From Moraxellaceae bacterium (GTDB lineage: Bacteria > Pseudomonadota > Gammaproteobacteria > Burkholderiales > Rhodocyclaceae), in assembly GCA_031119205.1 (NCBI GenBank), contig JAVHYF010000007.1, positions 83,264 through 143,283 of the forward strand: a stretch of 60,020 bases of DNA. Reading direction: 5' to 3'. The number at the start of each line of letters is the position of its first letter. The first letter of the stretch is position 1. Under the pieces are notes generated by a model. The model did no database searches. It was not told where the DNA came from and saw only the letters and a program-made list of their open reading frames with translations. The translations under genes were made by a program, and so were the position numbers. Shown in pieces: positions 3,019-20,432 of this stretch.

Positions 3019-5571
3019 ATGGTCAACGCTAGCGTGCTGCATGTGGAAGTGAATCCCGAGTTGCCTGCCACTCTTGGCAGGTTGAGGGAACTGGCAGGAA
3101 ACCTCTGGTACAGCTGGGACAGACCGACGAGAAGCCTCTTCTCGCGTTTGCATCCGGCGCTGTGGAATGCGGTGGGTCATAGCCCGCGCGCCATGCTGAA
3201 GCGGGTCGACGAGAGCCGGCTGACTGCTGCGGCCGAAGACTCGATGTACCTGAACAGCCTCTACCGGGTGCTCAGCGCCTACGATCTCTACCATCAGGAC
3301 GAGCGCCGCCACGGCGCAGCCTCGCAGCTCGGCAGCGAGGACGTCATCGCGTACTTCTGCGCGGAGTTCGGCTTCCACGCCAGCCTGCCGATCTATTCCG
3401 GCGGCCTCGGCATCCTTGCCGGGGACCACTGCAAGGCCGCCAGCGATGCCAACCTGCCTTTCGTGGCCATCGGCCTGTTGTACCGCCAGGGCTATTTCAG
3501 CCAGCAGCTGGACAAGGACGGCATCCAGCACGCCAACTACAACAACTCCGATTTCGAGGACTTGCCGGTCGACCCGGTGCTGGATGCCACCGGCGCGCCG
3601 CTGGTGGTCAGCATCCTGATCGCCGACCGTCCGGTGCGGGTCAAGATCTGGCTGGCGCGGGCCGGCCGTATCCGGCTGTTCCTGCTCGACACCGACCTGC
3701 CGGAAAACAGCGACCACGACCGCGCGATTGCGCACCGGCTGTACGGCGGTGATCGCAGTACCCGCATCGAACAGGAAATGGTGCTGGGCATTGCCGGTGC
3801 GCGTGCGCTGGCTGCCATGGGAATCAAGCCGGCCGTGTGGCACATCAACGAAGGCCATGCGGCCTTCCTGGTGCTGGAGCGCATGCGTGCGCTCATCAAG
3901 GCCGGTCTCGACTTCGAGACCTCGCTGGAAGCGGTGGCAGGCAATACCGTGTTCACCACCCACACGCCCGTGCCGGCGGGTCACGACCATTTCGACCTGA
4001 CCATGATGGCCCACTACTTCACGCCCTACATGGCGGAGATGGGCGTGGACATGCACCGGCTGGTGGACCTCGGTGCCACTGTAGGCCAGCACGACTTCAA
4101 CATGACCGCGCTGGCGGTACGTGGCTCGCGTTTCCAGAACGGCGTGTCGCGCATCCACGGCGATGTGTCGGCCGAGATCCTGCAGCAGTTCTGGCCGGAG
4201 GTGCCGGAGAAGGAAAACCCGGTCAGCTATGTCACCAACGGTGTGCATGTGCCGACCTTCCTCGCACCGCAATGGTACGAAGTCTTCGACCGCTACCTCG
4301 GCTTCGGCTGGCAGCAGCGCATCTACGACAAGGACACCTGGGCGAAGATCGACGAGATTCCGGATCACTTCTTCTGGAGCATCCGTCAGGACCTGAAGGT
4401 GCAGCTGATGCACCTGGTGCGCCACCGCGTCACCGCGCAGTGCCGGCGCAACCAGGTGAGCGATTCGCACATCGAGCGCATGCTGCGCTTGGCTGACCCG
4501 ACCAATCCGCGTGCGCTGGTCATCGGCTTCGCGCGCCGCTTCGCCACCTACAAGCGCGGCACGCTTCTGTTCTCGGACCTCAAGCGCTTGCACGAACTGG
4601 TGTCGAACCCGGAACGGCCAGTGCTCTTCATCTTCTCTGGCAAGGCCCACCCGGCCGACCTGCCGGGGCAGGAGTTCATCCGCGAGATCTACCGCATCTC
4701 GCAGCTGCCGGAGTTCCTTGGCCACGTGCTGCTGGTGGAAGGCTACGACCTGCGTCTGGCGCGTCGTCTGGTCAGCGGATCCGATGTCTGGCTGAACAAT
4801 CCGATCTACCCGCTGGAAGCTTCCGGCACCTCCGGCATGAAGGCCGCCATGAACGGCGTGCTCAACCTGTCGGTACTCGACGGCTGGTGGGGAGAGGGCT
4901 ACGAGCCTGGCAACGGCTGGGCCGTGGTGCCATCGCCGGAAAGCATGGACCCCGACAAACGGGACCGCGAGGAATCGGAAACGCTCTACGAGCTGATCCA
5001 GGACCAGGTGGTGCCGACTTTCTTCAGGGCGAACTCGCAAGGCTACTCTCCCGACTGGGTGAAGATGGCCAAGCACTCCATCCGCACCCTGCTGCCGACG
5101 TATTCATCGGCGCGCATGGTCGACGAGTACGTCAGCAAGTTCTACTTGGCCGGCATCAAGCAGGGCCGCAAGCTGGGTGACGACCAGTTCCGTGGCGCCA
5201 AGCTGCTGGCAGGCTGGAAGACCAAGGTGCGCCAGGCATGGGGCAGCGTCGGGCTACGGCTGGTTTCTGCGCCGCAACGCCGCATCGGCTTCGGTGATTC
5301 GGTGACGGTCAGCATCGCGGCCGGCCTGAACGGCCTGCAGCCGGAAGATGTGAAGGTGGAGCTGATCCTGTCGCGTGGCCTGGGAGAGACGGTGGGGGTG
5401 TCCAACCCTTACGTGCTGTCGCCGAAGGGCACGACCGAAGGCGGCGAGCTGATCTACGAGCTGAACCTCGCGCCGGAGCTGTGCGGCAAGCTGGAGATGC
5501 GCGTGCGCATCTACCCGCATCACGAACTGCTGAGCCACCCGATGGAAACCGGCCTCATGAAGTGGCTATGA
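3019..5571 (+). CDS. glgP: Glycogen/alpha-glucan phosphorylase
   Basis: This enzyme releases glucose-1-phosphate from glycogen or other alpha-1,4-glucans using phosphate and pyridoxal phosphate (glycosyltransferase family 35). The ATG at 3019 is chosen because GGGGAG lies 8 nt upstream and the protein then begins like the alpha-glucan phosphorylase subfamily, with the NLWYSWD motif about 30 residues in. The frame is open upstream to a TTG at 2935. The PLP lysine is K608 in SGTSGMKAAMNG. At 850 residues it is slightly longer than E. coli GlgP and closer to the DUF3417-containing alpha-glucan phosphorylases. It is transcribed toward the synthesis operon but as a separate unit, so breakdown and synthesis are controlled independently. 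Confidence 0.95.
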   Translation: MVNASVLHVEVNPELPATLGRLRELAGNLWYSWDRPTRSLFSRLHPALWNAVGHSPRAMLKRVDESRLTAAAEDSMYLNSLYRVLSAYDLYHQDERRHGAASQLGSEDVIAYFCAEFGFHASLPIYSGGLGILAGDHCKAASDANLPFVAIGLLYRQGYFSQQLDKDGIQHANYNNSDFEDLPVDPVLDATGAPLVVSILIADRPVRVKIWLARAGRIRLFLLDTDLPENSDHDRAIAHRLYGGDRSTRIEQEMVLGIAGARALAAMGIKPAVWHINEGHAAFLVLERMRALIKAGLDFETSLEAVAGNTVFTTHTPVPAGHDHFDLTMMAHYFTPYMAEMGVDMHRLVDLGATVGQHDFNMTALAVRGSRFQNGVSRIHGDVSAEILQQFWPEVPEKENPVSYVTNGVHVPTFLAPQWYEVFDRYLGFGWQQRIYDKDTWAKIDEIPDHFFWSIRQDLKVQLMHLVRHRVTAQCRRNQVSDSHIERMLRLADPTNPRALVIGFARRFATYKRGTLLFSDLKRLHELVSNPERPVLFIFSGKAHPADLPGQEFIREIYRISQLPEFLGHVLLVEGYDLRLARRLVSGSDVWLNNPIYPLEASGTSGMKAAMNGVLNLSVLDGWWGEGYEPGNGWAVVPSPESMDPDKRDREESETLYELIQDQVVPTFFRANSQGYSPDWVKMAKHSIRTLLPTYSSARMVDEYVSKFYLAGIKQGRKLGDDQFRGAKLLAGWKTKVRQAWGSVGLRLVSAPQRRIGFGDSVTVSIAAGLNGLQPEDVKVELILSRGLGETVGVSNPYVLSPKGTTEGGELIYELNLAPELCGKLEMRVRIYPHHELLSHPMETGLMKWL

Positions 5572-6173: not shown

Positions 6174-7769
6174 TCAGGCAACCTTGGCGTCCGCGCTCTT
6201 GCCGCGTCGTTTCACCGGCGCCGGCTTCGCCTCCGCCGGCCGGGCCTGGGCCGGGTCCGGCATGGCGGGAACGGGTGGAACCGGGTCGTTGACGGTGGCA
6301 GCCTCTGCGGCCTCCAGGCCGATTGCCTTGCGATACACCTCGACATACCGCTCGGCGCTACGCTGCCAGCCAAAATCGGTCTGCATACCGTTGCGCTGCA
6401 ACTGCGCCCACACGGCAGGTTGACCGAAGGCATCCAGTGCGCGCACCACGGCGTCATACAGGCCTGCCGCCGTCGGGCTGGCCAGCCTGAACCCGGTGGC
6501 GTCGCCCTTGCTCGCGGTCGGCGCGAAGTCGACCACTGAATCGGCCAGCCCGCCGGTGGCGTTCACGATCGGCGGGGTGCCATAGCGCTGGCTGTACATC
6601 TGGTTGAGGCCGCAGGGCTCGAAGCGCGACGGCATCAGGAAGGCATCCGAGCCGGACTCGATGACGTGGGCGAGCGATTCGCTGAAACCCAAGTGCGCAC
6701 TGATGCGTCCCGGGTGGCGTGCCACCAGCGCCTGCAATTCGCGCTCGTAGCCGATGTCGCCGGAGCCGAGGATGGCGAGCTGCACAGGCAGCGACATGAG
6801 GCGGTCGGCGGCTTCGATCACCAGGTCGACACCTTTCTGCGCGGTGAGGCGGCAGGCCATGCCAAGCACCATTTCGTTGCTCTCGCGCAGGCCCATGCGC
6901 AGGCGTAGTGCCTTGCGGTTGGCCGCCTTGCCGGCGAGGTCGCTCACGCTGTAGCGTTGGGTCAGGTAAGTATCCTTCTCCGGATCCCACTCGTCGGTGT
7001 CGATGCCGTTGAGGATGCCGGTGAGGCGGTCGGCGCGGGCGCGCATCAGGCCCTGCATGCCGAAGCCCAGTTGCTCTCCCTGCACCTCGAGCGCGTAGGT
7101 GGGGCTCACCGCGGTAATGGCGTCCGCATAGTAGAGGCCAGCCTTCAGGAAGGACATCTGGCCCCAGTACTCCACGCCCTCCATCTGGCGGCTCTCCGGC
7201 GGCAGCATCAATGCCTCGGCGAGATGCATGGGGTAGATCCCCTGGAAGGCAATGTTGTGGATCGTCATCACCGAGGCCGCCGGGTCGGGCAGGCCGAGCT
7301 TCAGGTAGGCGGGGCCGAGGCCTGTGGGCCAGTCGTTGCAATGCAGGACATGCGGCCGCCACTTGACCGGGCTGGCGCCGCTGGCCAGCACGGCAGCGAC
7401 GCGTGACAGCAGGCCGAAACGCAGGTGGTTGTCGCTGTGGTCCTGGTACCGCGGGTTCTGGTAGGGCGTGCCGTCGCGTTCGTAGAGGTCCTGGCAGTCG
7501 ATCAGCCAGGCTGTCACCCCGTTCGGCATCTTCGCGGCGAACAGGCTGCAGCCCGGCAATGCACCGTCGCGTGGCAGTTCCGCCAGCAATCGCAGGCCGC
7601 GCACCTTCGGCTTCAGCGACGAGTAGAAGGGCATCAACAAGCGGACGTCATGTCCCAGCTCGACCAGGGCGCGGGGCAGGGCGGCACTGACATCACCCAG
7701 CCCGCCGGTCTTGATCCAGGGTGCGCACTCTGGCGTTGCGAACAGGATTCTGAGCTTGGGTGTCTTCAT
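6174..7769 (-). CDS. glgA: Glycogen synthase (ADP-glucose)
   Basis: It transfers glucose from ADP-glucose to the growing alpha-1,4-glucan chain (family GT5). The ADP-glucose-binding KTGGLGDV motif is at residues 20-26 and the C-terminal lobe carries the EPCGLNQMYS nucleotide-sugar motif. At 531 residues it is longer than the usual 475-490: the last 40 or so residues form a Pro/Ala/Lys-rich tail that looks disordered. The ATG overlaps the malQ::treY stop codon as ATGA (7766-7769), so translation is probably coupled. It is the last core gene of the glgB-C-X-treZ-malQ::treY-glgA operon and should be the synthase that elongates chains branched by GlgB. Confidence 0.96.
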   Translation of the reverse strand: MKTPKLRILFATPECAPWIKTGGLGDVSAALPRALVELGHDVRLLMPFYSSLKPKVRGLRLLAELPRDGALPGCSLFAAKMPNGVTAWLIDCQDLYERDGTPYQNPRYQDHSDNHLRFGLLSRVAAVLASGASPVKWRPHVLHCNDWPTGLGPAYLKLGLPDPAASVMTIHNIAFQGIYPMHLAEALMLPPESRQMEGVEYWGQMSFLKAGLYYADAITAVSPTYALEVQGEQLGFGMQGLMRARADRLTGILNGIDTDEWDPEKDTYLTQRYSVSDLAGKAANRKALRLRMGLRESNEMVLGMACRLTAQKGVDLVIEAADRLMSLPVQLAILGSGDIGYERELQALVARHPGRISAHLGFSESLAHVIESGSDAFLMPSRFEPCGLNQMYSQRYGTPPIVNATGGLADSVVDFAPTASKGDATGFRLASPTAAGLYDAVVRALDAFGQPAVWAQLQRNGMQTDFGWQRSAERYVEVYRKAIGLEAAEAATVNDPVPPVPAMPDPAQARPAEAKPAPVKRRGKSADAKVA

Positions 7770-10700
7770 GACCGGGGGAGACGCTCTGGTTGGGGTTGGG
7801 GTTGGGGTTGGGTCGCCATCTGTTCGGCTATGCGCTTGGCTGTATGGTCGGCGATCAGCACGGCAAAGGGAAAGACGTTGTGCGGGGATGCGAACAGGGT
7901 TTCAAGGGGCAGGCGCAAACGTGCATCGAAAGACAGATCCCGCTGGCTGAACAACTCGCGGAAACGCAAGGAATCCAGTATTTCCGGCAGCACCACGAAG
8001 CTGCCGGCCCACAGGCTGGCATCACGCAGCGCCACCAGTTCGCCACCGGTCAGGGTGTGCAGCAGGCGCGGCACCAGCACCAGCACGAGTTGCTCTCCAT
8101 CACGCTCAGGCAAGTATCGTGCAAAGGCCACGAGGTGCTCGGCCGCCGGGCCCTGCACGGCCACCGACAGATAGCGTCCGCGCTCGAAAAGCACCGGCAG
8201 GCGGCGGCGCAGGTCCAGCACTGCGGACACCATGTGCAGCTTGATGCGACCGTCCTCCACGCTGTCCATCAGGCTGACCGGCAGCGTCCCGGGGGCGGCG
8301 CTCCCGTTCTGCAATGCCCCCTGCAACGCACCGAGTTGGGTCTGCAGCGCACCATGGTCCACCGGGCGCCGGTTGTCCGGGTCCACCAGGCTGAAGTTCC
8401 AGCCTTCGCAGCCCTGGTAGATGTCGGGCACGCCGGGTACCGTCAGCTTCAGCAGCGTCATTGCCAGGCTGTTGTAGTAGCCGAACGCGGCGATGCGTTG
8501 CTGCAGGGGCAGGAAGTCGGCGAGGAAGGCATTGTGTTCCGCACTGTCGAGCACGCCGTCGATGAAATGCGCCAGTGCGCGCTCGTACTCCTCGTCCGGT
8601 CGGGCCCAGCTGCTGCGGGCCTTGGCCTCGCGCACGGCCTTCTGCATGTAGGCCTGGATGCGCGCGCGATAGGCGTCCAGCGCAGCCTGGGTCAGCTCAC
8701 CGGAAGGCCAGGACCCGAGCAGGGTCTGGTACAGCAGGTATTCGTCGTTGCGCGAGGGCGCTAGTTCGCCGTCGCTGCGCGCGCGCAGGCGATCGTTCAG
8801 GCGGCTCCAGCGTCGTAACCCAAGCCGCCAGTGACCGGGGAGTTCGGACAGCACGTCGATGCGCGCACGCACATCCTCGCCTCGCTTGGTGTCGTGCGTG
8901 GAACTCGCCAGCATGGTGTGCGGCGAGAAGCGCGCGCGTTGCTGGTTGGCGGCATGGAAGGCATTGACCGACACGCCGAAGTTGCGCGGATCGCCGCCCA
9001 CCTCGTTGAGCGACACCAGCCGGTTGTAGCGATAGAAGGCCGTGTCCTCCATGCCCTTGGCGGTCACCGGCGAGGTGAACTGCTGGAAGCTGCCGATGAA
9101 ACGCAGGATCGCCTCGCGACCCGCCGGGTGCGGATCACCACCGGCGCCGAGCAGGATGTCGTGCACGAAGTCCAGTACGCTGCTGTCTTCCGACTGGCTG
9201 CGGCGGCGCGCGGCTGCGATCGCCCAGGCCAGGTAACGGCGGTCCTCGCTGCGCAGGCCCGCTTCGGTGATGTAGGTGCGATACACCGGGAAGCAGGCGG
9301 TGATCTGCATCAGCGTGCGACGCAGGCGGTTGTGGGTGAAGTCACAGGTACGGCGGTCGGCCTGCGCAATGCGGTGCAGGCGGTGGCTCAGCATATTCAG
9401 CTCGCTGGCCAGCGCGTTCATCATGATCAGCAGTTTGCTGCGATAGAGCACCTCGTCGTAGTCCAGCTTCTCGCCGCTGAAACCGCCGTAGATGCGGTCG
9501 AAGCGCGACTCGTTGTCACCATCGACGAAGAGGCCGTTCACCAGGTTGATGAAGTCATAGCCGGTGCTGCCATGTACGTCCCACTGCGCAGGCAGGCGCT
9601 CGTAGTCGGCAAGGATCTTTTCCACCAGCAGGTACAGCGCACGACGGGGTTCGTCAGGCTGCGCGGCGTGGCGACGTTCGGCGTGGCGCTCCTGCAGGCG
9701 GCGGTAGTAAGCCTGCGGGTCGAACAGGCCGTCCGGGTGATCCAGCCGCAGGCCGGCGATGCGGCCTTCCTCCAGCCAGCGCAGCACCGTCGCATGCGTC
9801 GCCTCGAACACCGACTCGCTCTCCATGCGCAGTGCGGCCAGGTTGTTGATGTCGAAGAAGCGCCGGTAGTTGATGTCGTCGGAGGCTGCGCGCCAGTGCG
9901 CCAGCCGCCAGGCCTGGTTGCGGATCAGGTTGTCCAGTGCGTCGAAACTGTGGGGGTCACCAACGCGCCCCGCGAGGCTCAGCGCACACTGGCGTACCAG
10001 TTGATGCAGCCAGTCGGAGGCCTTGCACAACCCCGACAGGCGCCGCTTGCAGCCTTCTGCCGCCTCGCGTCGCCGGACCCGGTCCGCAGGGTCGCGCGGC
10101 GGCAGGGCGGCGAAGTCCGCCAGCAGTGTGCGGAAGGCGTCCAGGTTGCTGGCGTGTTCGCCCTCCACGACATGCCGCGCCTGCAGCGCTTCCAGCACGC
10201 GCGGGTAGTCGCGCGGGTCGATGGGAAACAGGTTGCCGTGGTAGTCGATGCGGAACTCGCCGCGCTCCAGATCGAACTCCGGCCGCAGTTCGCCGCTTTC
10301 CAGCACCACGCCGTAGTGGTCGCCCAGCACCGGCACCAGCAAGCGGCCCTGCATGTCGGGGTCGGGTGGGTTCCAGTCGATGTCGAATGTCTGCGCGAAT
10401 TCGGAGGCCTGCCCATGCTCCAGCACGTCCTGCCACCAGGCGTTGTCGGCGCCCATCACGCCCATGTGGTTGGGCACGAAATCCAGCACCTGCTGCATGC
10501 CATGCGCGCGCAGGGCGTCGCAGAAGTTGTCGAAGTCTTCCTGGCTGCCGATCTCCGGGTTGATGCTGTGGTGGTCGACGATGTCGTAGCCGTGCGTGCT
10601 GCCGGGGCGTGCCTGCAGGTACGGCGAGGCGTACACGTGGCTGATGCCCAGCTTCGCGAGGTAAGGGACGATCGCCGTCGCGTCCGTGAAGCGGAAACCC

Positions 10701-12960
10701 TTGTGGAACTGCAGGCGGTAGGTGGCGCGCGGGACGAGGGCGGTGTCCAGCGGCGGCACCGGGGTCACGGTGCTGGTGTCACGCGGCAGTGGCGGGCGTT
10801 CCGATTCGATGGCGCGAGACAGTGCGGCCAGGCGGCCGTCGGCGCGCGCATCGTCGAGCGACAGCGGTAGCTTGCGGCGCCAGTTCGGGTAGCGCTCCTC
10901 GCTGGTGCTCGGCACGTTCACCTGTTCGAGCTGGCCGAACACGTCTTCCAGCTGCACGCCCATCAGGCGCGACGGCGTGCGTGCGAGGTACTGGTGGATG
11001 GCGCGCACGAGGCCAGGGGTGGCTTCCGGCGTCTCGCGCGGATCCTGGCTCAGGCCTTCCGGCATGAGTCCCTCGCGCCCCAATGCTTCCAGCAGCCGCC
11101 AGCGGTCGTCGGCGCGGCCCTGGATCTGGCGCTCGCGCAGCGACTCGGTGGGAAAGAGGTTCAGCTTCGTGCGCAGCTCCAGATCGAAACCGTTCCAGAA
11201 GCTGCGCAGCGTCGGCAGGTCGTGGGTGCTGACGGCCACCAGGGCGTGCGGTGTCCATTCTGCCGGTGGCTTGAAGCGGCCTTCCCACACGCGTTCGAAG
11301 TAGAAGGGCTTGTACGACAGCATGGCTTGCGAGGCCATGGCATGACGCATCTCGTCGGCCACCGTGCCTAGGTCTTCGCCGATGATCAGGCATTGCTGAC
11401 GCACGCTCTCCAGCGCGACGATACCCAGCAGGTCGTGCAGCGGGTAGGCAACGTAGGTCCCTTCGGTGGCGCTGCTGCCGGCAGGCACCCAGTACAGGCG
11501 CATCAGGCCCATCACGTGGTCCAGCCGCAATGCGCCGGCATTACGCATGTTGGCGCGCAGCACTTCCACGAAGGGCTCGTAGGCCGCGTCGCGCAAGCGT
11601 CGCGGCACCTGCGGTGGCAGGCCCCAGTCCTGGCCGGTGAGGTTGAATTCTTCCGGCGGCGCGCCGACGCTGGCCTTCAGCGCAAACAGCTCCGGCTGCA
11701 TCCAGGTCTCGGAACCACCCTGGTTCACGCCGACCGCGAGGTCGCGGTACAGCCCCAGCTGCATGCCCAGCGATTCGGCACGCTGGCACAGGCTGCGCAG
11801 TTGCAGCTCGGCCTGCCATTGCAGGTACTCGAAGAACTCGACGCGGTCTTCGTGCTCCCGCGTGAAGCTGCGCACGGCCGCGGCGTTGCAGTCGCGATAC
11901 GCCTCCGGCCAGGTGGTCCAGCCCCAGACGTTGCGGTCCTGCGCGAAGAAGTGTTCCTGCAACGCTTCGAACAGCGCGTGCTGGCGCAGACTGAGACCAC
12001 CCTCGCGCTGGAACTCGCGGAACTGGCGGCCACGTCGCGTATTGCGCAGCAAGTGCTGCTGGCGGAAGTGCGCGTACAGCGCTTCCAGCGCTTCGAACTT
12101 CAGGGCGCCGACGGCGGCGTAGTCCACCAGTTCGGTAGCACGCAGGGCGGCCAGGCGCTCCTGGAATGCCGGCGTCGCGACGCGCGCACGCAGTGCGGTG
12201 TGTTCGCCGAAATCGGCAATCGCCTCGATGCCGAGGTACAGCACATTGAGCCACGCGCGCGAAGACGGGCTGTAAGGACTGGCGCGTTCGGCCTCGTGCG
12301 GGAAGAGGGCGTGCGTCGGGCTCAGGCCCATGAACTGCGCACCCTGTGCGGCAGTCACTTCCATCAACCTGCGCAGGTCGCTGTAGTCACCGACGCCCCA
12401 GTTCTCCGCGGAGCGCAGCGCATAGACCTGCACCACCGGCCCCCATACGCGGCCGCCGGCGGCGAGCTGCGGTGGCGTGTGGCAGGCGTGCGGGCAGATC
12501 ACCAGACGCATGCGGCCCAGCACGCGCATGTCGCCGGTGGCCTGCGACACGGTCAGGTCGTGATAGCCCAGCGGCAACTGGGCGGAGAGCTGCAAGGGAA
12601 TCGTCGCCTGTGCGGCACCGGCGGGCACCGCTGACAGAATGCCGCGGAATTCCTGGCCGTCCTCGCAGACCAGTCGCCAGGCAAGCAACAGGTTGCCCAG
12701 TTCCGGGCCGGGGCGCAGTTGCACCTCCACGCCCTGGCCCTCACGCACCACCATCACGGGTGGCAGCATGCGCGCGGCATCCTCCTGCTGCAGGCGGGCC
12801 AGCGTGTCGCGGGCCGAGGCTTCGTCCTGCGCGGCAAAACCCATCGCGATGGCCAGGCTGCGCTTGGTGGTGGCGCTGGCGTGCTTGTATTCGCCGAAGG
12901 CGTCGGTGTAGCCGGTGGCGATCCCGATGTATTCGCAGAGACGATCGAGGGCTTCGTCGC

Positions 12961-12964
<4 letters not shown>
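7766..12964 (-). CDS. malQ-treY: Fused 4-alpha-glucanotransferase (MalQ) and maltooligosyl-trehalose synthase (TreY)
   Basis: A single uninterrupted 1732-residue frame. Residues 1 to about 735 are a GH77 amylomaltase: nucleophile in LRLDHVMGLMRLYW, acid in IGEDLGTV, and STHDLPT. From about 745 to the end it is a GH13 TreY: ATYRLQFHKGF at the start, LDFVPNHMGV, GLRLDHPDGLFD, LVEKILADYE and SSTHDTKRGEDVR. MalQ reshuffles maltodextrins, and TreY turns the reducing end into a trehalosyl unit that TreZ then releases. The linker near 720-745 is short and Pro-rich. The gene overlaps treZ upstream and glgA downstream by ATGA. The C-terminus ends in a (QP)4 tail. Similar fusions are, as far as I recall, annotated in some betaproteobacteria, so the fusion may not be unique. 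Confidence 0.93.
7788..7812. repeat. TTGGGG hexamer tract, telomere-like, G-quadruplex-prone
   Basis: On the + strand five G-runs are separated by TT, that is (TTGGGG)3 plus partial units. This is the sequence class of ciliate telomeres and folds readily into G-quadruplexes in vitro. Here it encodes the Gln-Pro repeat near the C-terminus of MalQ::TreY, so the G-rich strand is the template strand. The tract ends about 19 bp before the glgA start codon. Because the unit is 6 bp, slippage would change the number of Gln-Pro pairs without a frameshift. Confidence 0.85.
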
Positions 12965-14803
<1,839 letters not shown>

Positions 14804-14817
<14 letters not shown>

Positions 14818-14859
14818 AGGAGAGACCTCATAGGAGAAACCTCATGGGCGCGACCTCAT
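14804..14859 (-). repeat. 14-bp tandem repeat ending in the treZ start codon
   Basis: On the minus strand the units start at 14859, 14845, 14831 and 14817, exactly 14 bp apart. Each begins ATGAGGT; unit 2 is ATGAGGTTTCTCCT, unit 3 differs from it by one base, and the fourth is the first 14 bases of treZ. The same period joins the upstream AGGAGG (14868-14873) to the first ATG. Each unit is 6 bases of start plus Shine-Dalgarno (ATGAGG) and 8 bases of spacer. Confidence 0.95.
14814..14859 (-). other. Three overlapping five-codon minicistrons before treZ
   Basis: Frames MRSRP (14842-14859), MRFLL (14828-14845) and MRSLL (14814-14831) each end in a TGA that overlaps the next ATG as ATGA; the last overlaps treZ. 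The first has a perfect AGGAGG 8 nt upstream. For each later start, GAGG of the previous start region sits 8 nt upstream, the ideal distance. This is visible in the sequence. That ribosomes run through the chain by termination-reinitiation is inference. The peptides themselves are too short to suggest a function. Confidence 0.6.
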
Positions 14860-14894
14860 CGGATCAACCTCCTGAGCCCTGTGCGCATGCTCAT
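14856..14894 (-). CDS. 12-codon leader frame between glgX and the minicistron chain
   Basis: MSMRTGLRRLIR starts at an ATG overlapping the glgX stop as ATGA (14891-14894) and stops at a TGA overlapping the first minicistron as ATGA (14856-14859). It contains the AGGAGG that serves the next start. It completes an unbroken stop-start path from glgX to treZ. It could simply be the spacer sequence; expression is unproven. Confidence 0.4.
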   Translation of the reverse strand: MSMRTGLRRLIR

Positions 14895-17074
14895 TCATCC
14901 CTCCGCATGCGCAGCAGGGCCAGCGAGCGGCCGGCCAGCGTGTAGCGGGTGCCGGCATCGAATTCCTGGCCGGGAGTTGTGACCGCGTCACGGGTGTCGA
15001 GCAGCAGGCTCCATTTCGAACCGCCATTGCCGGGCAGGGTGAACAGGATTTCCTCGTGGTGGGCGTTGAGAAGCAGCACGAGGTCGTCGTCGTCCACCGG
15101 CTGGCCCCAGGCGTCGTGTTCCGCCAGCCCCTTGCCGGACAGGAATACGCCGACGCAGCGCGCGAAAGACTGGCTCCATTCGGCATCGGTCATCTCGTGG
15201 CCGTCGGGTGACAACCAGGCGATGTCCTTGTTGCCCTCGTGCACCTCGATGCCGCGGAAGAACGTGCGGCGACGGAACAGCGGATGGGCGTTGCGCAGGC
15301 GGATGACCCCGGCGGTGAAGTCGATCATCTGCTGCTGTTCTTCGGTGAGGTTCCAGTCCTGCCAGCTGATCTCGCTGTCCTGGCAGTAGGCGTTGTTGTT
15401 GCCACCCTGGGTGCGGCGCATCTCGTCACCGGACAGGATCATCGGCACGCCTTGCGACAGCAGCAGCGTCGCCATGAGGTTGCGCGCCTGCCGCGCGCGC
15501 AGGGCATTGATCTGCGGATCGTCGGTGGGGCCTTCGGCACCGCAGTTCCAGCTGCGGTTGTGCGATTCGCCGTCGCGGTTGTCCTCGTGGTTGGCTTCGT
15601 TGTGCTTGTCGTTGTAGCTGACCAGGTCGTTCAGCGTGAAGCCGTCATGGGCGGTAATGAAATTGACGCTGGCAGTCGGCCCGCGGCCGGAGTAGGTGTA
15701 GATGTCGCTGGAGCCGGAGAGTCGATAGGCCACCTCGCCGATCACGCCGCCATCACCTTTCCAGTACGAACGCAGGCAGTCGCGGTACTTGCCGTTCCAC
15801 TCCGACCAACCCGGCGGGAAGCCGCCCACCTGGTAGCCACCTTCGCCAATGTCCCACGGTTCTGCGATCAGCTTCACGCAGTTGAGCACCGGGTCCTGCC
15901 GCAGGATGTCGAGGAAGCCGCTGTAGAAATCGTAGGCATGCTCCTCGCGCGCCAGCGTGCTGGCGAGGTCGAAACGGAAGCCGTCGACGTGCATTTCGGT
16001 GACCCAGTAACGCAGGCTGTCAGCGATCAGCTGCAGCACCACCGGGTTCTTCGTGTGCAAGGTGTTGCCGGTGCCGGTGTAATCGATGTAATGCCGCTTG
16101 CCTTCGCCACCCAGGCGGTAATAGGTGGCGTTGTCGATGCCGCGGAAGCTCAGCGTCGGCCCCAGCTGGTTGCCCTCCGCGGTGTGGTTGTAGACCACGT
16201 CCAGGATGACCTCCAGCCCGGCCGCGTGCAGCGTGCGCACCATGGACTTGAACTCGTTGATGTCGCCGGTGGCGCTGTAGCGCATGTCCGGCGCGAAGAA
16301 GCCGATGCTGTTGTAGCCCCAGTAGTTGCGCAGGTTCTCCTGCACCAGCCGCTTGTCATCGATGAAGTGATGCACAGGCAGCAGCTCGATGGCGGTGACG
16401 CCCAGGCGTTTGAAGTGGTCGATGGCTGCGGGGGTCGCCAGACCGGCATAGGTGCCGCGCAGGTGTTCCGGCACGCCGGGATGCAGCTGGGTAAAGCCCT
16501 TGACGTGGGTCTCGTAGATCACCGTGTCCTGCCAGGGCGTGCGCGGTGGCCTGTCGTCACCCCAAGAGAACGCGTTGTCGACGACCTGGCACTTGGGCAT
16601 GCCGGAGGCCGAATCCCGCGGGTCGAAGGACAGGTCTTCGCGTTTGCCGCCGACGCGGTAGCCGAAGTGCGCATCGCTCCAGCGCAGCTTGCCCACGATG
16701 GAGCGGGCGTAGGGGTCCAGCAACAGCTTGTTGGGGTTGAAGCGGTGGCCGTTCTCCGGCTCGTAGGGGCCGTGCACGCGGTAGCCATACAACTGTCCCG
16801 GGCGCACGCCGGGCAGGTAGCAGTGCCACACGAAGTTGGTGCGCTCGATCATCTCGATGCGGCACAGCTCGCGGCGACCATCATGGTTGAACAGGCATAG
16901 CTCCACCTTCTCGGCATGCTGCGAGAACAGTGCGAAGTTGACGCCCAGGCCATCCCACGTAGCGCCGAGCGGATAGGGGGTGCCGCGCCACACGCGCTGC
17001 GAGGCGGCCGATGCATGTTTGTCGGTCACGGCGTCTGGATCATTCACCGCGCCGCTGATTTTCGTTGCGTCCAT
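14891..17074 (-). CDS. glgX: Glycogen debranching enzyme
   Basis: A GH13 isoamylase-type enzyme that cuts alpha-1,6 branches, mainly short limit-dextrin branches left by GlgP; its maltodextrin products feed MalQ and TreY. It has an N-terminal CBM48 module (YPLGATWDGLGVNFALFS), then nucleophile region FRFDLASTLARE, acid in LIAEPWDIG and HD in TAHDGFTLNDLVSYN. I place the start at 17074, where AGGA lies 6 nt upstream, giving 727 residues; the frame remains open to 17140. It lies 125 bp after glgC and its stop codon opens the chain of ATGA junctions leading to treZ. Confidence 0.95.
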   Translation of the reverse strand: MDATKISGAVNDPDAVTDKHASAASQRVWRGTPYPLGATWDGLGVNFALFSQHAEKVELCLFNHDGRRELCRIEMIERTNFVWHCYLPGVRPGQLYGYRVHGPYEPENGHRFNPNKLLLDPYARSIVGKLRWSDAHFGYRVGGKREDLSFDPRDSASGMPKCQVVDNAFSWGDDRPPRTPWQDTVIYETHVKGFTQLHPGVPEHLRGTYAGLATPAAIDHFKRLGVTAIELLPVHHFIDDKRLVQENLRNYWGYNSIGFFAPDMRYSATGDINEFKSMVRTLHAAGLEVILDVVYNHTAEGNQLGPTLSFRGIDNATYYRLGGEGKRHYIDYTGTGNTLHTKNPVVLQLIADSLRYWVTEMHVDGFRFDLASTLAREEHAYDFYSGFLDILRQDPVLNCVKLIAEPWDIGEGGYQVGGFPPGWSEWNGKYRDCLRSYWKGDGGVIGEVAYRLSGSSDIYTYSGRGPTASVNFITAHDGFTLNDLVSYNDKHNEANHEDNRDGESHNRSWNCGAEGPTDDPQINALRARQARNLMATLLLSQGVPMILSGDEMRRTQGGNNNAYCQDSEISWQDWNLTEEQQQMIDFTAGVIRLRNAHPLFRRRTFFRGIEVHEGNKDIAWLSPDGHEMTDAEWSQSFARCVGVFLSGKGLAEHDAWGQPVDDDDLVLLLNAHHEEILFTLPGNGGSKWSLLLDTRDAVTTPGQEFDAGTRYTLAGRSLALLRMRRDE

Positions 17075-17199
17075 TCCGGTTCCTGTCTGTTGGCCGTGCC
17101 GCGGGCACGACGCATCACGACACGCTGTGGCCACAGCCAATCGCTGCAGGCCGCAGGCGTGCCGTCTCCTCCTCGTGGATGTGCAGTGCTGGTCCGCGT

Positions 17200-18414
17200 T
17201 CAGCGCAGCTGACCGCGTCCCACCACCACGATGCCTTGCTCGCTCACGTGGAAACCGCGTTCGCGGTCCCGCGCCGGATCGAATCCGATGCGGTCACCTG
17301 GCCGCACGATGTTGTTCTGGTCGATGATCGCGCGCCGCACCTTTGCGCCGCGTCCGATCACGGTGCGATCCATGATGATGCTCTCGCTGATCTCGGCGTC
17401 TTCTTCGACGACCACCTCACGGCGCAGCAGTGCGCTGTTGATGCGCGCGCCACGCAGCACACAGCCGGCACCGATGGATGAATTGCGCAAATGGGCGTCG
17501 ATGATCTGCGCCGACTCCACCTGGTCCGGCGCGGAGTACACCGGCCATTGCGGGTTGGTCATGCGGAAACGCGGACGCTCGCCGAGGGTGTCGAAGTTGG
17601 CAGCGAAGTAGGCGTCGATGGTGCCGACGTCGCGCCAGTAATTGGCTTCTTCGTACTCCTGCACGCCGGGCACCTTGTTGGTGGCGAAGTCGTAGGCCAC
17701 GACTTTGTGGGTCTTGGTCAGGCGCGGCAGGATGTGCTTGCCGAAGTCGTTCTCGCCCTTGGCGTGCGCTTCGTTCAGCGCATCGAGCAGGACGTCGGTG
17801 GAGAAAATGTAGTTACCCATGGATGCCAGCGAGAAGCCGGGTCGCCCGGGCATGGAGTCCGCCACGCGCGGCTTCTCCTCGAAGGCGGTGATGCGGGTGT
17901 CGGCACTGGTGCGGATGATGCCGAACTGGTCGCACTGCGATACCGGCACCGGCAGGGCGGCGACCGATACGTGGGCCTGGGTGTCGACGTGGTGCTGCAC
18001 CATCTGGCGCACGTCCATGCGGTACACGTGGTCGGCACCGAACACTGCCACCAGGTCGGGCTTCACCAGGTTGATGAGGTGGATGTTCTGGCACACCGCG
18101 TCGGCCGTGCCCTGGAACCACGCGGCACCGTGATGCATCTGCGGCGGCACGACGGTGATGAACTGGTGCGGCAGGAAAGGCGTCATGACCCAGGACTTGC
18201 GCACGTGCTCGATGAGCGACTGCGACTTGTACTGCACCAGCAGGTAGACGCTGTAGATCTCGGAGTTCACCAGGTTGGACAGCACGAAATCCACGATACG
18301 GTGCTTGCCGTTGAACGGGACCGAGGGCTTGGAGCGTTCAGCGGTGAGAGGGTGGAGTCGGCTGCCTTCTCCACCTGCCATGACGAACGCGAGTACGTTC
18401 TTGCCGGCGATCAT
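17200..18414 (-). CDS. glgC: Glucose-1-phosphate adenylyltransferase
   Basis: It makes ADP-glucose from ATP and glucose-1-phosphate, the committed step of bacterial glycogen synthesis. The N-terminal nucleotidyltransferase signature [15 protein letters not shown] is followed by [16 protein letters not shown], and a left-handed beta-helix forms the last third. The ATG at 18414 ([10 protein letters not shown]) gives 404 residues, a normal length. The longer frame up to 18720 runs antisense-like through the glgB end and is rejected because it is Arg/Pro-rich and unlike the family. AAGGAA lies about 10 nt upstream. It is 83 bp downstream of glgB in the same operon. Confidence 0.96.
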
Positions 18415-18497
18415 GATTTTGGTTTCCTTAGCGAGGGGTGCTGCTGTTTGGGGCAATTGGGGGTACGGGGGCCTGGTTGCTCGAGCTCGCGGGGAAA

Positions 18498-20432
18498 CTA
18501 GGGCGGGGCGACAAGGATCAGGGTGGACAGGGGCGGCAGGTGCAAGCTCAGGCTGTGCTGGAACGAGCCCCAGGTCTGCGCCTGGCTGTGTATGCCGCCG
18601 TGGTTGCCGATGCCGCTGCCGCCGTATTCGACGGCATCGCTGTTCAGCAGCTCGCGCCAGTAGCCGCCGTAGGGCACGCCCAGGCGGTGGAAGGGCCGCG
18701 GCACCGGTGTGAGGTTGCACACCACCAGCACCGGAGCGGCGTTGTCGGCATAGCGCAGGAAAGCCAGCACGCTCTGGTCGGCGTCATTGCTTTCCACCCA
18801 CTGGAAGCCACTGCTGTCGAAGTCGCGGCGGTGCAGGGCGGGTTGTTCGCGGTAGCAGCGGTTGAGGTCGCGCACCCACTGGCTGAGGCCGCGGTGCTCG
18901 ATGTACTCCAGCAGATGCCAGCCGAGTTGCGCTTCGTGGCTCCATTCCTCCGGCTGACCGAATTCGCCGCCCATGAACAGCAGCTTCTTGCCGGGATGGC
19001 CCCACATGTAGCCGAGCATGGCGCGCAGGTTGGCGAACTGTTGCCAGCGGTCGCCACGCTGGCGCGCCAGCAGGGAACCCTTGCCGTACACCACCTCGTC
19101 GTGCGACAGCGGCAGTACGAAGTTCTCGCTGAAGGCGTAGACGAGACTGAAGGTGATGTCGTTGTGGTGGAAGCGACGGTGGATGGACTCGCGGCCGAAG
19201 TAGTTCAGCGTGTCGTGCATCCAGCCCATGTTCCACTTCATGCCGAAGCCCAGGCCACCGAGGTGCACCGGGCGGCTGACGCCGGGCCAGGAGGTGGACT
19301 CCTCGGCGATCATCTGCACGTCCGGGTGGTCGCGGTAGGCGGCGGCATTGAGCTGCTGCAGGAAGGCCACGGCGTCCAGGTTCTCGCGGCCGCCATACTC
19401 GTTGGGCAGCCATTCGCCTTCGCGGCGGGCGTAGTCCAGGTACAGCATGGAGGCCACGGCGTCGACGCGCAGCGCATCCACATGGTATTTCTCCAGCCAG
19501 AACAGCGCGCTGCTGATCAGGAAGGCGCGGACCTCGTTACGGCCGTAGTTGAAGATGTGGCTGTTCCACTCCGGATGGAAGCCGCGGCGCGGGTCCTGGT
19601 GCTCGTACAGTGCGGTGCCGTCGAAATGCGCCAGGCCGTGCTGGTCGTTCGGGAAGTGGGAGGGCGCCCAGTCCATGATGACCCCGATGCCATGCTGGTG
19701 CAGGGTGTCGATCAGGAACATCAGGTCCTGCGGGCTGCCGTAGCGGGAGCTGGCTGCAAAGTAGCCGGTGGTCTGGTAGCCCCAGGAGCCGTAGAACGGA
19801 TGCTCGGTCAGCGGCATCAATTCGACGTGGGTGAAACCCATCTCCACCAGGTACTGCGCCAGCGGCCAGGCCATTTCGCGGTAGCCGAAGAAGCGGCGTC
19901 CCTCCGGCGTGCGCCAGGAACCGAGGTGCAGTTCGTAGATCGACCACGGTGCATCCAGCGCATTGCGTGCGCCACGGCCGTGCATCCAGGCACCGTCCTG
20001 CCAGTCGTAGTCCAGCCGGGTAACGACGGAGGCGGTGCGTGGCGCCTGCTCGCCGGCGAAGGCAAGCGGGTCTGCCTTCCACACGGTGTTGCCGTCCGCG
20101 CCGACGATCCGGTACTTGTAGCACTGGCCCACCTGGGCGTGGGCGTCGAACACCTCCCAGATGCCGGAGCTGTCCCAGCGTGGGTACATCGGCACCGGCT
20201 GCCAGCCGTTGAAATCGCCCACCAGGGAGACCTCGCGGGCGGCGGGTGCCCACACCGCGAAGCTGACGCCGCCCTCGGGACGGGCATGTGCACCAAGATG
20301 GTGGTGCAGGCCGTGGTGGTTGCCTTCGCGAAACAGGTAAATATCCAGCGACGACAGGCGCGAAACGCCAGTCGGCCCCGCCCCGGCGTCGATGGGGGCG
20401 GTATGGGGCTGTATGTCGCTGCTGTAGTCCAC
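18498..20432 (-). CDS. glgB: 1,4-alpha-glucan branching enzyme
   Basis: It introduces alpha-1,6 branches into the glucan chain (GH13 with N-terminal CBM48). [20 protein letters not shown] marks the CBM48 module. The catalytic residues lie in [14 protein letters not shown] (nucleophile), [11 protein letters not shown] (acid) and [15 protein letters not shown]. At 644 residues it is the shorter form, lacking the extra N-terminal domain of E. coli GlgB (728). It is the first gene of the leftward operon glgB-glgC-glgX-treZ-malQ::treY-glgA, so the 324-bp region to its right should carry the operon promoter. Confidence 0.96.

Follow-up and report, generated by a model that had tools for sequence, protein, structure and literature searches.

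Between glgX and treZ lies a gap that holds a chain of start codons, each fused to the stop before it, and the locus raises the question of how such a chain arises and what it would do for the translation of treZ. The window analysed here, a stretch of 60,020 nucleotides, comes from contig C26 of a genome of 4.6 Mb. Its sequence carries minus-strand ATGs at 14888, 14859, 14845, 14831 and 14817, the last being that of treZ, and every stop overlaps the next start as ATGA. From the glgX stop to the treZ start there are 73 nt, 56 of which belong to an array; on the minus strand, 14804-14873 consists of five consecutive 14-bp units with the treZ start included, and ATGAGG is found in four of them (Table 1).

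Table 1. Features of the glgX-treZ ladder and the adjoining genes (positions in the window).
Feature	Positions	Strand	Sequence, product or frame	Basis
glgX	14891..17140	-	glycogen debranching; stop TGA 14893-14891	NCBIfam TIGR02100, 1077.4 bits vs cutoff 640.9
First minicistron	14856..14888	-	10 codons, MRTGLRRLIR	translation; SD duplex predicted at -10.0 kcal/mol
Unit 0	14860..14873	-	AGGAGGTTGATCCG; degenerate upstream array copy without ATG	sequence
Unit 1	14846..14859	-	ATGAGGTCGCGCCC; frame MRSRP, stop 14844-14842	sequence
Unit 2	14832..14845	-	ATGAGGTTTCTCCT; frame MRFLL, stop 14830-14828	sequence
Unit 3	14818..14831	-	ATGAGGTCTCTCCT; frame MRSLL, stop 14816-14814	sequence
Unit 4	14804..14817	-	ATGAGGTTCCGCCA; last array copy, treZ start region	sequence, Tandem Repeats Finder
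treZ	12961..14817	-	malto-oligosyltrehalose trehalohydrolase	NCBIfam TIGR02402, 658.6 bits vs cutoff 538.8
malQ-treY	7766..12964	-	malQ-treY fusion	NCBIfam PRK14507, 2307.2 bits vs cutoff 2148

An earlier note on this DNA had described four tiny frames chained by ATGA, three of them on a 14-bp tandem repeat. The chain is present, as are the three five-codon frames, which start at 14859, 14845 and 14831 and are closed by ATGA; the first frame has 10 codons rather than the 12 given there. It starts 2 nt past the glgX stop, and its own stop overlaps the start of unit 1. The repeat was also correctly recognised, and the array extends beyond the three frames to the ATG-less unit 0 and to the treZ start itself. 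The sequence likewise agrees with the description of a unit made of ATGAGG plus 8 bases, in which GAGG sits 8 nt ahead of each following ATG, and of an opening AGGAGG 8 nt ahead of the ATG at 14859. The unit-1 frame stays open upstream for 110 codons, running into glgX out of frame, so that calling it a separate minicistron presupposes a start at 14859. The treZ start at 14817 aligns with the start codons of relatives.

The ladder is a real and very regular feature with a simple origin. Of the 31 Tandem Repeats Finder rows for the window, the highest scores are those of the array (span 14810-14871), at 82, 71 and 68 for three overlapping entries against 50 for the runner-up, and the pattern of two consecutive units has two matches in the window against none in 100 shuffles. 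In the whole genome, ATGAGG-N8-ATGAGG occurs four times, three of them at this ladder, while the reversed control gives none. No sigma-70-like promoter and no terminator-like site was found in 14600-15300. On the far side of treZ, the sequence has an ordinary junction, where a single ATGA holds both the malQ-treY start and the treZ stop, a 4-nt overlap. MalQ and TreY are joined here in one protein of 1732 aa. On the other side of glgX, the listed glgC frame (17200-18720, minus strand) begins about 105 codons before the part that matches GlgC and shares 223 nt with the glgB frame, and its true start therefore probably lies further downstream.

The simple origin resides in the unit. As it starts with ATGA and has a length of 2 mod 3, each ATG reads into the TGA of the next unit, barring an earlier stop, and as GAGG directly follows the ATG, it serves as the Shine-Dalgarno (SD) sequence of the next copy. 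Self-closing frames and SD spacing thus need no design, since both follow from tandem copying of an ATGA-led, GAGG-holding 14-bp unit: a single tandem duplication of the start region gives the whole architecture, and later gain or loss of a unit preserves it, in line with the claim already made that changes of copy number leave the arrangement intact. GAGGTT occurs both in the SD region, AGGAGGTT, and in the start region, ATGAGGTT, at a distance of exactly 14 nt, so that copying could slip by 14 bp. On sequence grounds, this pair of regions is a likely seed of the treZ ladder, at which such a slippage step would have begun. The same simplicity suits a neutral reading, as the apparent design needs nothing beyond the 14-bp unit. 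In that reading, the array is a slippage-made, start-proximal minisatellite that persists only since a duplicated ATGA junction spares both proteins, with ribosomes loading directly at the treZ SD and the upstream frames of little consequence; we regard it as possible but on balance unlikely.

The treZ gene is absent from all seven congeners, and its start was compared at 37 loci of the family and order (42-54% identity in the best segment) and at 80 wider loci from a contig scan (45-51% identity). Among the family and order relatives, the treZ start of 23 of 37 lies in frame inside a 4-nt NTGA overlap with an upstream frame 200 codons or more in length, these upstream frames being counted by length alone, and 13 of the 23 overlaps fall exactly at the aligned Met1. 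A 4-nt overlap is present in 38 of the 80 wider relatives, for a combined total of 61 of 117, and is missing from the remaining 14/37 and 42/80. An equal-spaced ladder, defined as two evenly spaced ATGAs followed by a third ATG, was seen near the treZ start in none of the 117. Given the plain overlap in 23 of 37 relatives and the plain ATGA between treZ and malQ-treY, the ladder probably replaced an ordinary coupled junction.

The genome holds two further ladders, the units of which differ from the treZ unit. One (L115, G000:C49:51812-51843) consists of ATGAGGCAGCTC, ATGAGGCAGGAATC and ATGAGG, with units of 12 and 14 bp; it precedes the gene for a protein with a soluble lytic transglycosylase domain and holds the genome's one other ATGAGG-N8-ATGAGG. 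The other (L406, G000:C77, about 210880-210920) consists of ATGAGTGCA, ATGAGACTGCA, ATGAGAATGCA and ATGAAC, with units of 9 and 11 bp, and stands before the gene for a Peripla_BP_2 (BtuF-like) protein. It came from a class-wide ATGAR scan of 335 genomes that was used solely for this third ladder, as in lower-GC genomes many of its matches are due to chance or lie in coding sequence. In that scan, one genome (G667) had 65 ATGAR-triplet matches against none in the reversed control. Neither sister ladder was seen in any of the seven congeners within 110 nt upstream of the orthologues, the frames being judged by eye. At the L115 site, five of the seven have a GATGTTACGT leader and then a single start, and the other two have no repeat; at the L406 site, the upstream frame simply overlaps the gene by ATGA in five, and two show a different context. 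As judged by this comparison of sequences, both ladders were gained in this lineage.

Further searches also showed that such ladders recur in the family. Across 395 family genomes, ATGAGG-N8-ATGAGG was found at 74 places in 64 genomes against 24 places in 18 genomes for the reversed control (sums made by hand), an excess that is partly due to the usual spacing of SD and start; ATGAG triplets with gaps of 3-15 matched 355 times (178 genomes), and the reversed control 113 times (61 genomes). Among the loci read, the genuine tandem ladders lead into genes: units of 8 bp precede a HATPase_c protein (Pfam), units of 11 bp precede glutaredoxin, nickel hydrogenase and a TauD-family protein, and units of 14 bp precede PepSY_TM, HD-domain and HlyD-type proteins. 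The HATPase_c protein is presumably of the GyrB type. Of the frame-shifting arrays read, about half are followed by no long frame and hence are not start ladders. One array (L421, G336:C27, about 710-810) repeats the 16-bp unit ATGAGCCTGTCGAAGC seven times and has no long frame behind it. A dispersed repeat similar to ATGAGGATTCCGAGCAGCGCATGAG was also noticed in two genera of the family, at no fewer than seven places in one genome (G002) and three in another (G211) among 20 matches; it could represent an interspersed element bounded by ATGA.

In viral contigs, too, arrays of five or more ATGA units stand ahead of frames of 80 codons or longer. Two near-perfect viral ladders were recorded, one with 17-bp units and eight ATGAs, the last ATG of which opens 269 codons (L753, about position 13268), and one with 11-bp units and six ATGAs, the last ATG of which opens 179 codons (L339, about position 3210). 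The treZ ladder belongs to a recurrent class that we did not find described at unit sizes of 8-17 bp, and ATGA ladders seem to arise repeatedly through slippage in DNA copying, being tolerated and maybe exploited by translation. That the ladders are found in some species and missing in near relatives is also what a neutral minisatellite would do.

A change in unit number was found at the PepSY_TM ladder of two close species, which has five ATGs in one (G188) and three in the other (G158), before proteins that are 98% identical. The flanking sequences match, and the two ladders differ by exactly two 14-bp units; the gene had no match at E 1e-40 in the other two genomes of that genus. Together with the ladder gains in single lineages, this lends good support to the view of the earlier note that the array was made by slippage, a process that at treZ itself would be the same in kind. 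It also bears on a further idea, also raised there, by which slippage alters the unit number and so sets TreZ output through reinitiation and not through a gene's reading frame, as an adaptive tuner akin to phase variation. The available text of PMC2734929, in which repeat length at an M. tuberculosis array correlates with the fpg1 mRNA level, points in the same direction, while the ATG units of the window differ at 4 of 14 columns, so that the treZ array is not freshly homogenised, and the annotated genes behind ladders have no function in common. The period test below shows no significant bias either, and we consider the tuner quite unlikely.

Two observations speak against complete neutrality, both from small samples. 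The variable columns among the four ATG units of the window are 8, 9, 11 and 14, and ATGAGGT is invariant. At a ladder before HscB (spacings 14-11-11), present in three of nine genomes of another genus, 6 of 40 positions vary among the three copies, and all starts and stops are left intact; the sole variable position inside an ATGA is a change of ATG to GTG, by which start and stop are kept. The invariant ATGAGGT and the spared HscB starts and stops hint at constraint, within the limits of samples of this size.

The predicted SD strengths also disfavour direct loading at treZ as the whole story. Unit 0 carries the strong SD of unit 1, with a predicted duplex of -11.0 kcal/mol, against -6.3 kcal/mol for units 2 and 3 and for treZ, and ribosomes should therefore enter the ladder. 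Whether folding could hide this entry site is a related matter, since it had been proposed that the CTCCT of units 2 and 3 pairs with the opening AGGAGG and masks it, as an RNA switch. An isolated 81-nt fold does pair AGGAGG with unit 2, but partition functions in contexts of 141 and 301 nt give a pairing probability of at most 0.05, by which the hairpin was rejected; moreover, the ladder region is predicted to fold less stably than its own shuffles (z +1.6 and +1.5), and no Rfam family matched above threshold. On these models a switch is highly improbable. A single match to a microRNA model, far below threshold (E 0.37), was taken as chance and not as a known RNA element.

With moderate confidence, we suggest that the ladder is a slippage-born tandem duplication of the treZ start module, which would relay ribosomes to treZ from glgX or from entry at AGGAGG. 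Every extra copy would contribute one SD and one ATGA, and would end its five-codon frame at the start that follows, as 14 is 2 mod 3, so that GlgX and TreZ would be unaltered at any copy number. Ribosomes could enter after terminating at the glgX stop, 2 nt short of the first minicistron, or by loading directly at the strong AGGAGG, and would then be passed to treZ by successive 4-nt stop-start overlaps, with a presumed effect on the level of TreZ. Such a relay would bridge the 73-nt gap, which would otherwise weaken or break the coupling of glgX and treZ. In E. coli, five-codon minigenes lose peptidyl-tRNA through drop-off; for the same reason, a relay over free five-codon frames would be leaky.

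Published coupling data, as far as the available parts of these papers go, give this relay a plausible footing. Of three E. coli gene pairs, two lose 80-90% of their coupling at a gap of +38 nt and one loses all of it, and the final 15 nt of an upstream gene are enough for coupling, when fused to a long reporter and not as a free five-codon frame (PMC10666635). According to a review, early studies saw coupling fall 3- to 10-fold by about +40 nt, and others found hardly any loss, or none, up to +25 nt and coupling at longer spacings too (PMC12548453, in the portion accessible). From the anatomy of the ladder and by analogy with these data, repeated reinitiation is plausible.

If the relay matters, start arrays should favour unit lengths of 2 mod 3. 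For bacterial arrays of equal period (periods not divisible by 3, with only equal-gap counts used), 28 among the matches listed are 2 mod 3 and 12 are 1 mod 3. Merging two ortholog pairs gives 26 against 12 among the matches listed (p 0.017 for equal odds and 0.075 for five versus four available periods), and those with similar units number 19 against 11, again among the matches listed (p 0.10 and 0.25); the arrays at G166:C110, G309:C21 and G189:C59, all 2 mod 3, have dissimilar units. Viral scans for five units gave 88, 116, 36, 79, 65 and 35 stretches at periods 10, 11, 13, 14, 16 and 17. Periods 14 and 16 are inflated by 7- and 8-bp repeats, for which 55 and 42 arrays were set aside, plus 4 at period 10, and the counts leave out the four-unit scan at period 11 and the five-unit scan at period 8. 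The last start opens at least 80 codons in 13 viral arrays of periods 11, 14 and 17 (one of which, L645, is partly a 7-bp repeat) against 5 of periods 10, 13 and 16. The other viral classes, again given as 2 mod 3 against 1 mod 3, are frames of 50-79 codons (8 vs 9), antisense-open arrays (43 vs 31), starts with a longer antisense frame (4 vs 1) and the rest (136 vs 116).

Bacterial arrays with periods of 10-17 stand before a frame of at least 80 codons in 7 against 4 cases among the matches listed, the frame being unconfirmed in two of these eleven (G138 and G263b), and the others divide 8 against 7. Excluded from this count are the window's own array, six period-8 arrays, the genome's own C49 and C77 ladders, L158, G108:C113, G225:C128, G166, G309 and G189:C59. 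Bacteria and viruses combined give an odds ratio of 1.99 at the 80-codon cut (p 0.061), or 1.94 when the viral classes that had been set aside are added to the others (p 0.067), and 1.32 at a viral cut of 50 codons (p 0.20), the last value being lower because the viral class of 50-79 codons is divided 8 to 9. Gene starts thus show a weak preference for coupling-compatible periods, with a direction that fits in both bacteria and viral contigs, and at p values of 0.061 and 0.20 the test does not establish selection for coupling. A bias that is not significant is in keeping with the neutral minisatellite, as is the finding that arrays of 1 mod 3 too precede long frames. Examples of the latter have 10-bp units, before proteins that we take to be FliM-like and threonine-aldolase-like.

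If ribosomes do walk down such ladders by the relay that we favour, repeat number would be a slippage-variable translational dial that frameshifts no gene, in contrast to classical phase variation in coding repeats. One might go further and propose that ATGA start ladders form a general, unrecognised class in bacteria and phages, made of local copies of the start module, favoured at 2 mod 3 and giving slippage-adjustable control of translation that never breaks a protein; in this broad form we think the proposal rather unlikely. Even if neutral, the ladder illustrates how a 4-nt operon junction can expand while its coupling geometry survives. Start-site annotation is ambiguous at ladder loci, and the zero to four extra units found across bacterial genes offer a natural series for probing how frequently ribosomes reinitiate in succession.

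Comparison with known systems shows that the earlier statement that no element like this had been described was too strong, at least in respect of coupling and of expression. A literature search over titles and the starts of abstracts, in short result lists with subscription papers mostly outside, returned no tandem ATGA ladders with units of 8-17 bp. By analogy, the closest precedent is the mycobacterial MIRU. In the available text of PMC12548453, MIRUs sit at start codons, where a short frame is coupled to the gene at -4 nt through a 4-nt overlap, which likely limits the impact of insertion, and PMC2734929, as far as it could be consulted, reports that MIRU-VNTR copy number differs between isolates at some loci and describes the start-proximal array tied to fpg1 expression mentioned above. 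The treZ ladder has the same -4 nt spacing of short frame to gene, a likeness of geometry only. MIRU units, by these partial sources, are 40-100 bp long, scattered over many loci and apparently mobile, whereas ATGA-ladder units are 8-17 bp long, are built from the local start site and share little except ATGA. In a 301-base search of the genome, the treZ ladder was found at one place only, with no dispersed copies of its array, and with its local 14-bp unit, found nowhere else in this genome, it was rejected as a MIRU.

The TAACTGA heptamer arrays of Beggiatoaceae are likewise short tandem units just upstream of start codons, with unit-sized indels between two strains, according to the accessible portion of PMC4679880. 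They differ, on the same source, in being a fixed heptamer with stops in all three frames, little SD character and no start codon in the unit, and the treZ ladder, made of 14-bp ATGAGG units rather than of TAACTGA, was rejected as an array of this type. Gene pairs that overlap by ATGA have the same stop-start geometry as the ladder; in the consulted excerpts, coupling was found in 13 of 14 such pairs tested (PMC6728339) and is strongly dependent on distance (PMC10666635). The treZ ladder has four such 4-nt overlaps and the 2-nt gap after glgX, but unlike those pairs it sets four junctions in series, over frames of 5-10 codons with no evident product. Among short frames that deliver ribosomes, bicistronic-design leaders and the one ahead of iraD, as described in the available parts of PMC5995908 and PMC5574718, are likewise coupled to the next gene; these are single leaders, unlike the tandem, nearly identical units of the treZ ladder.
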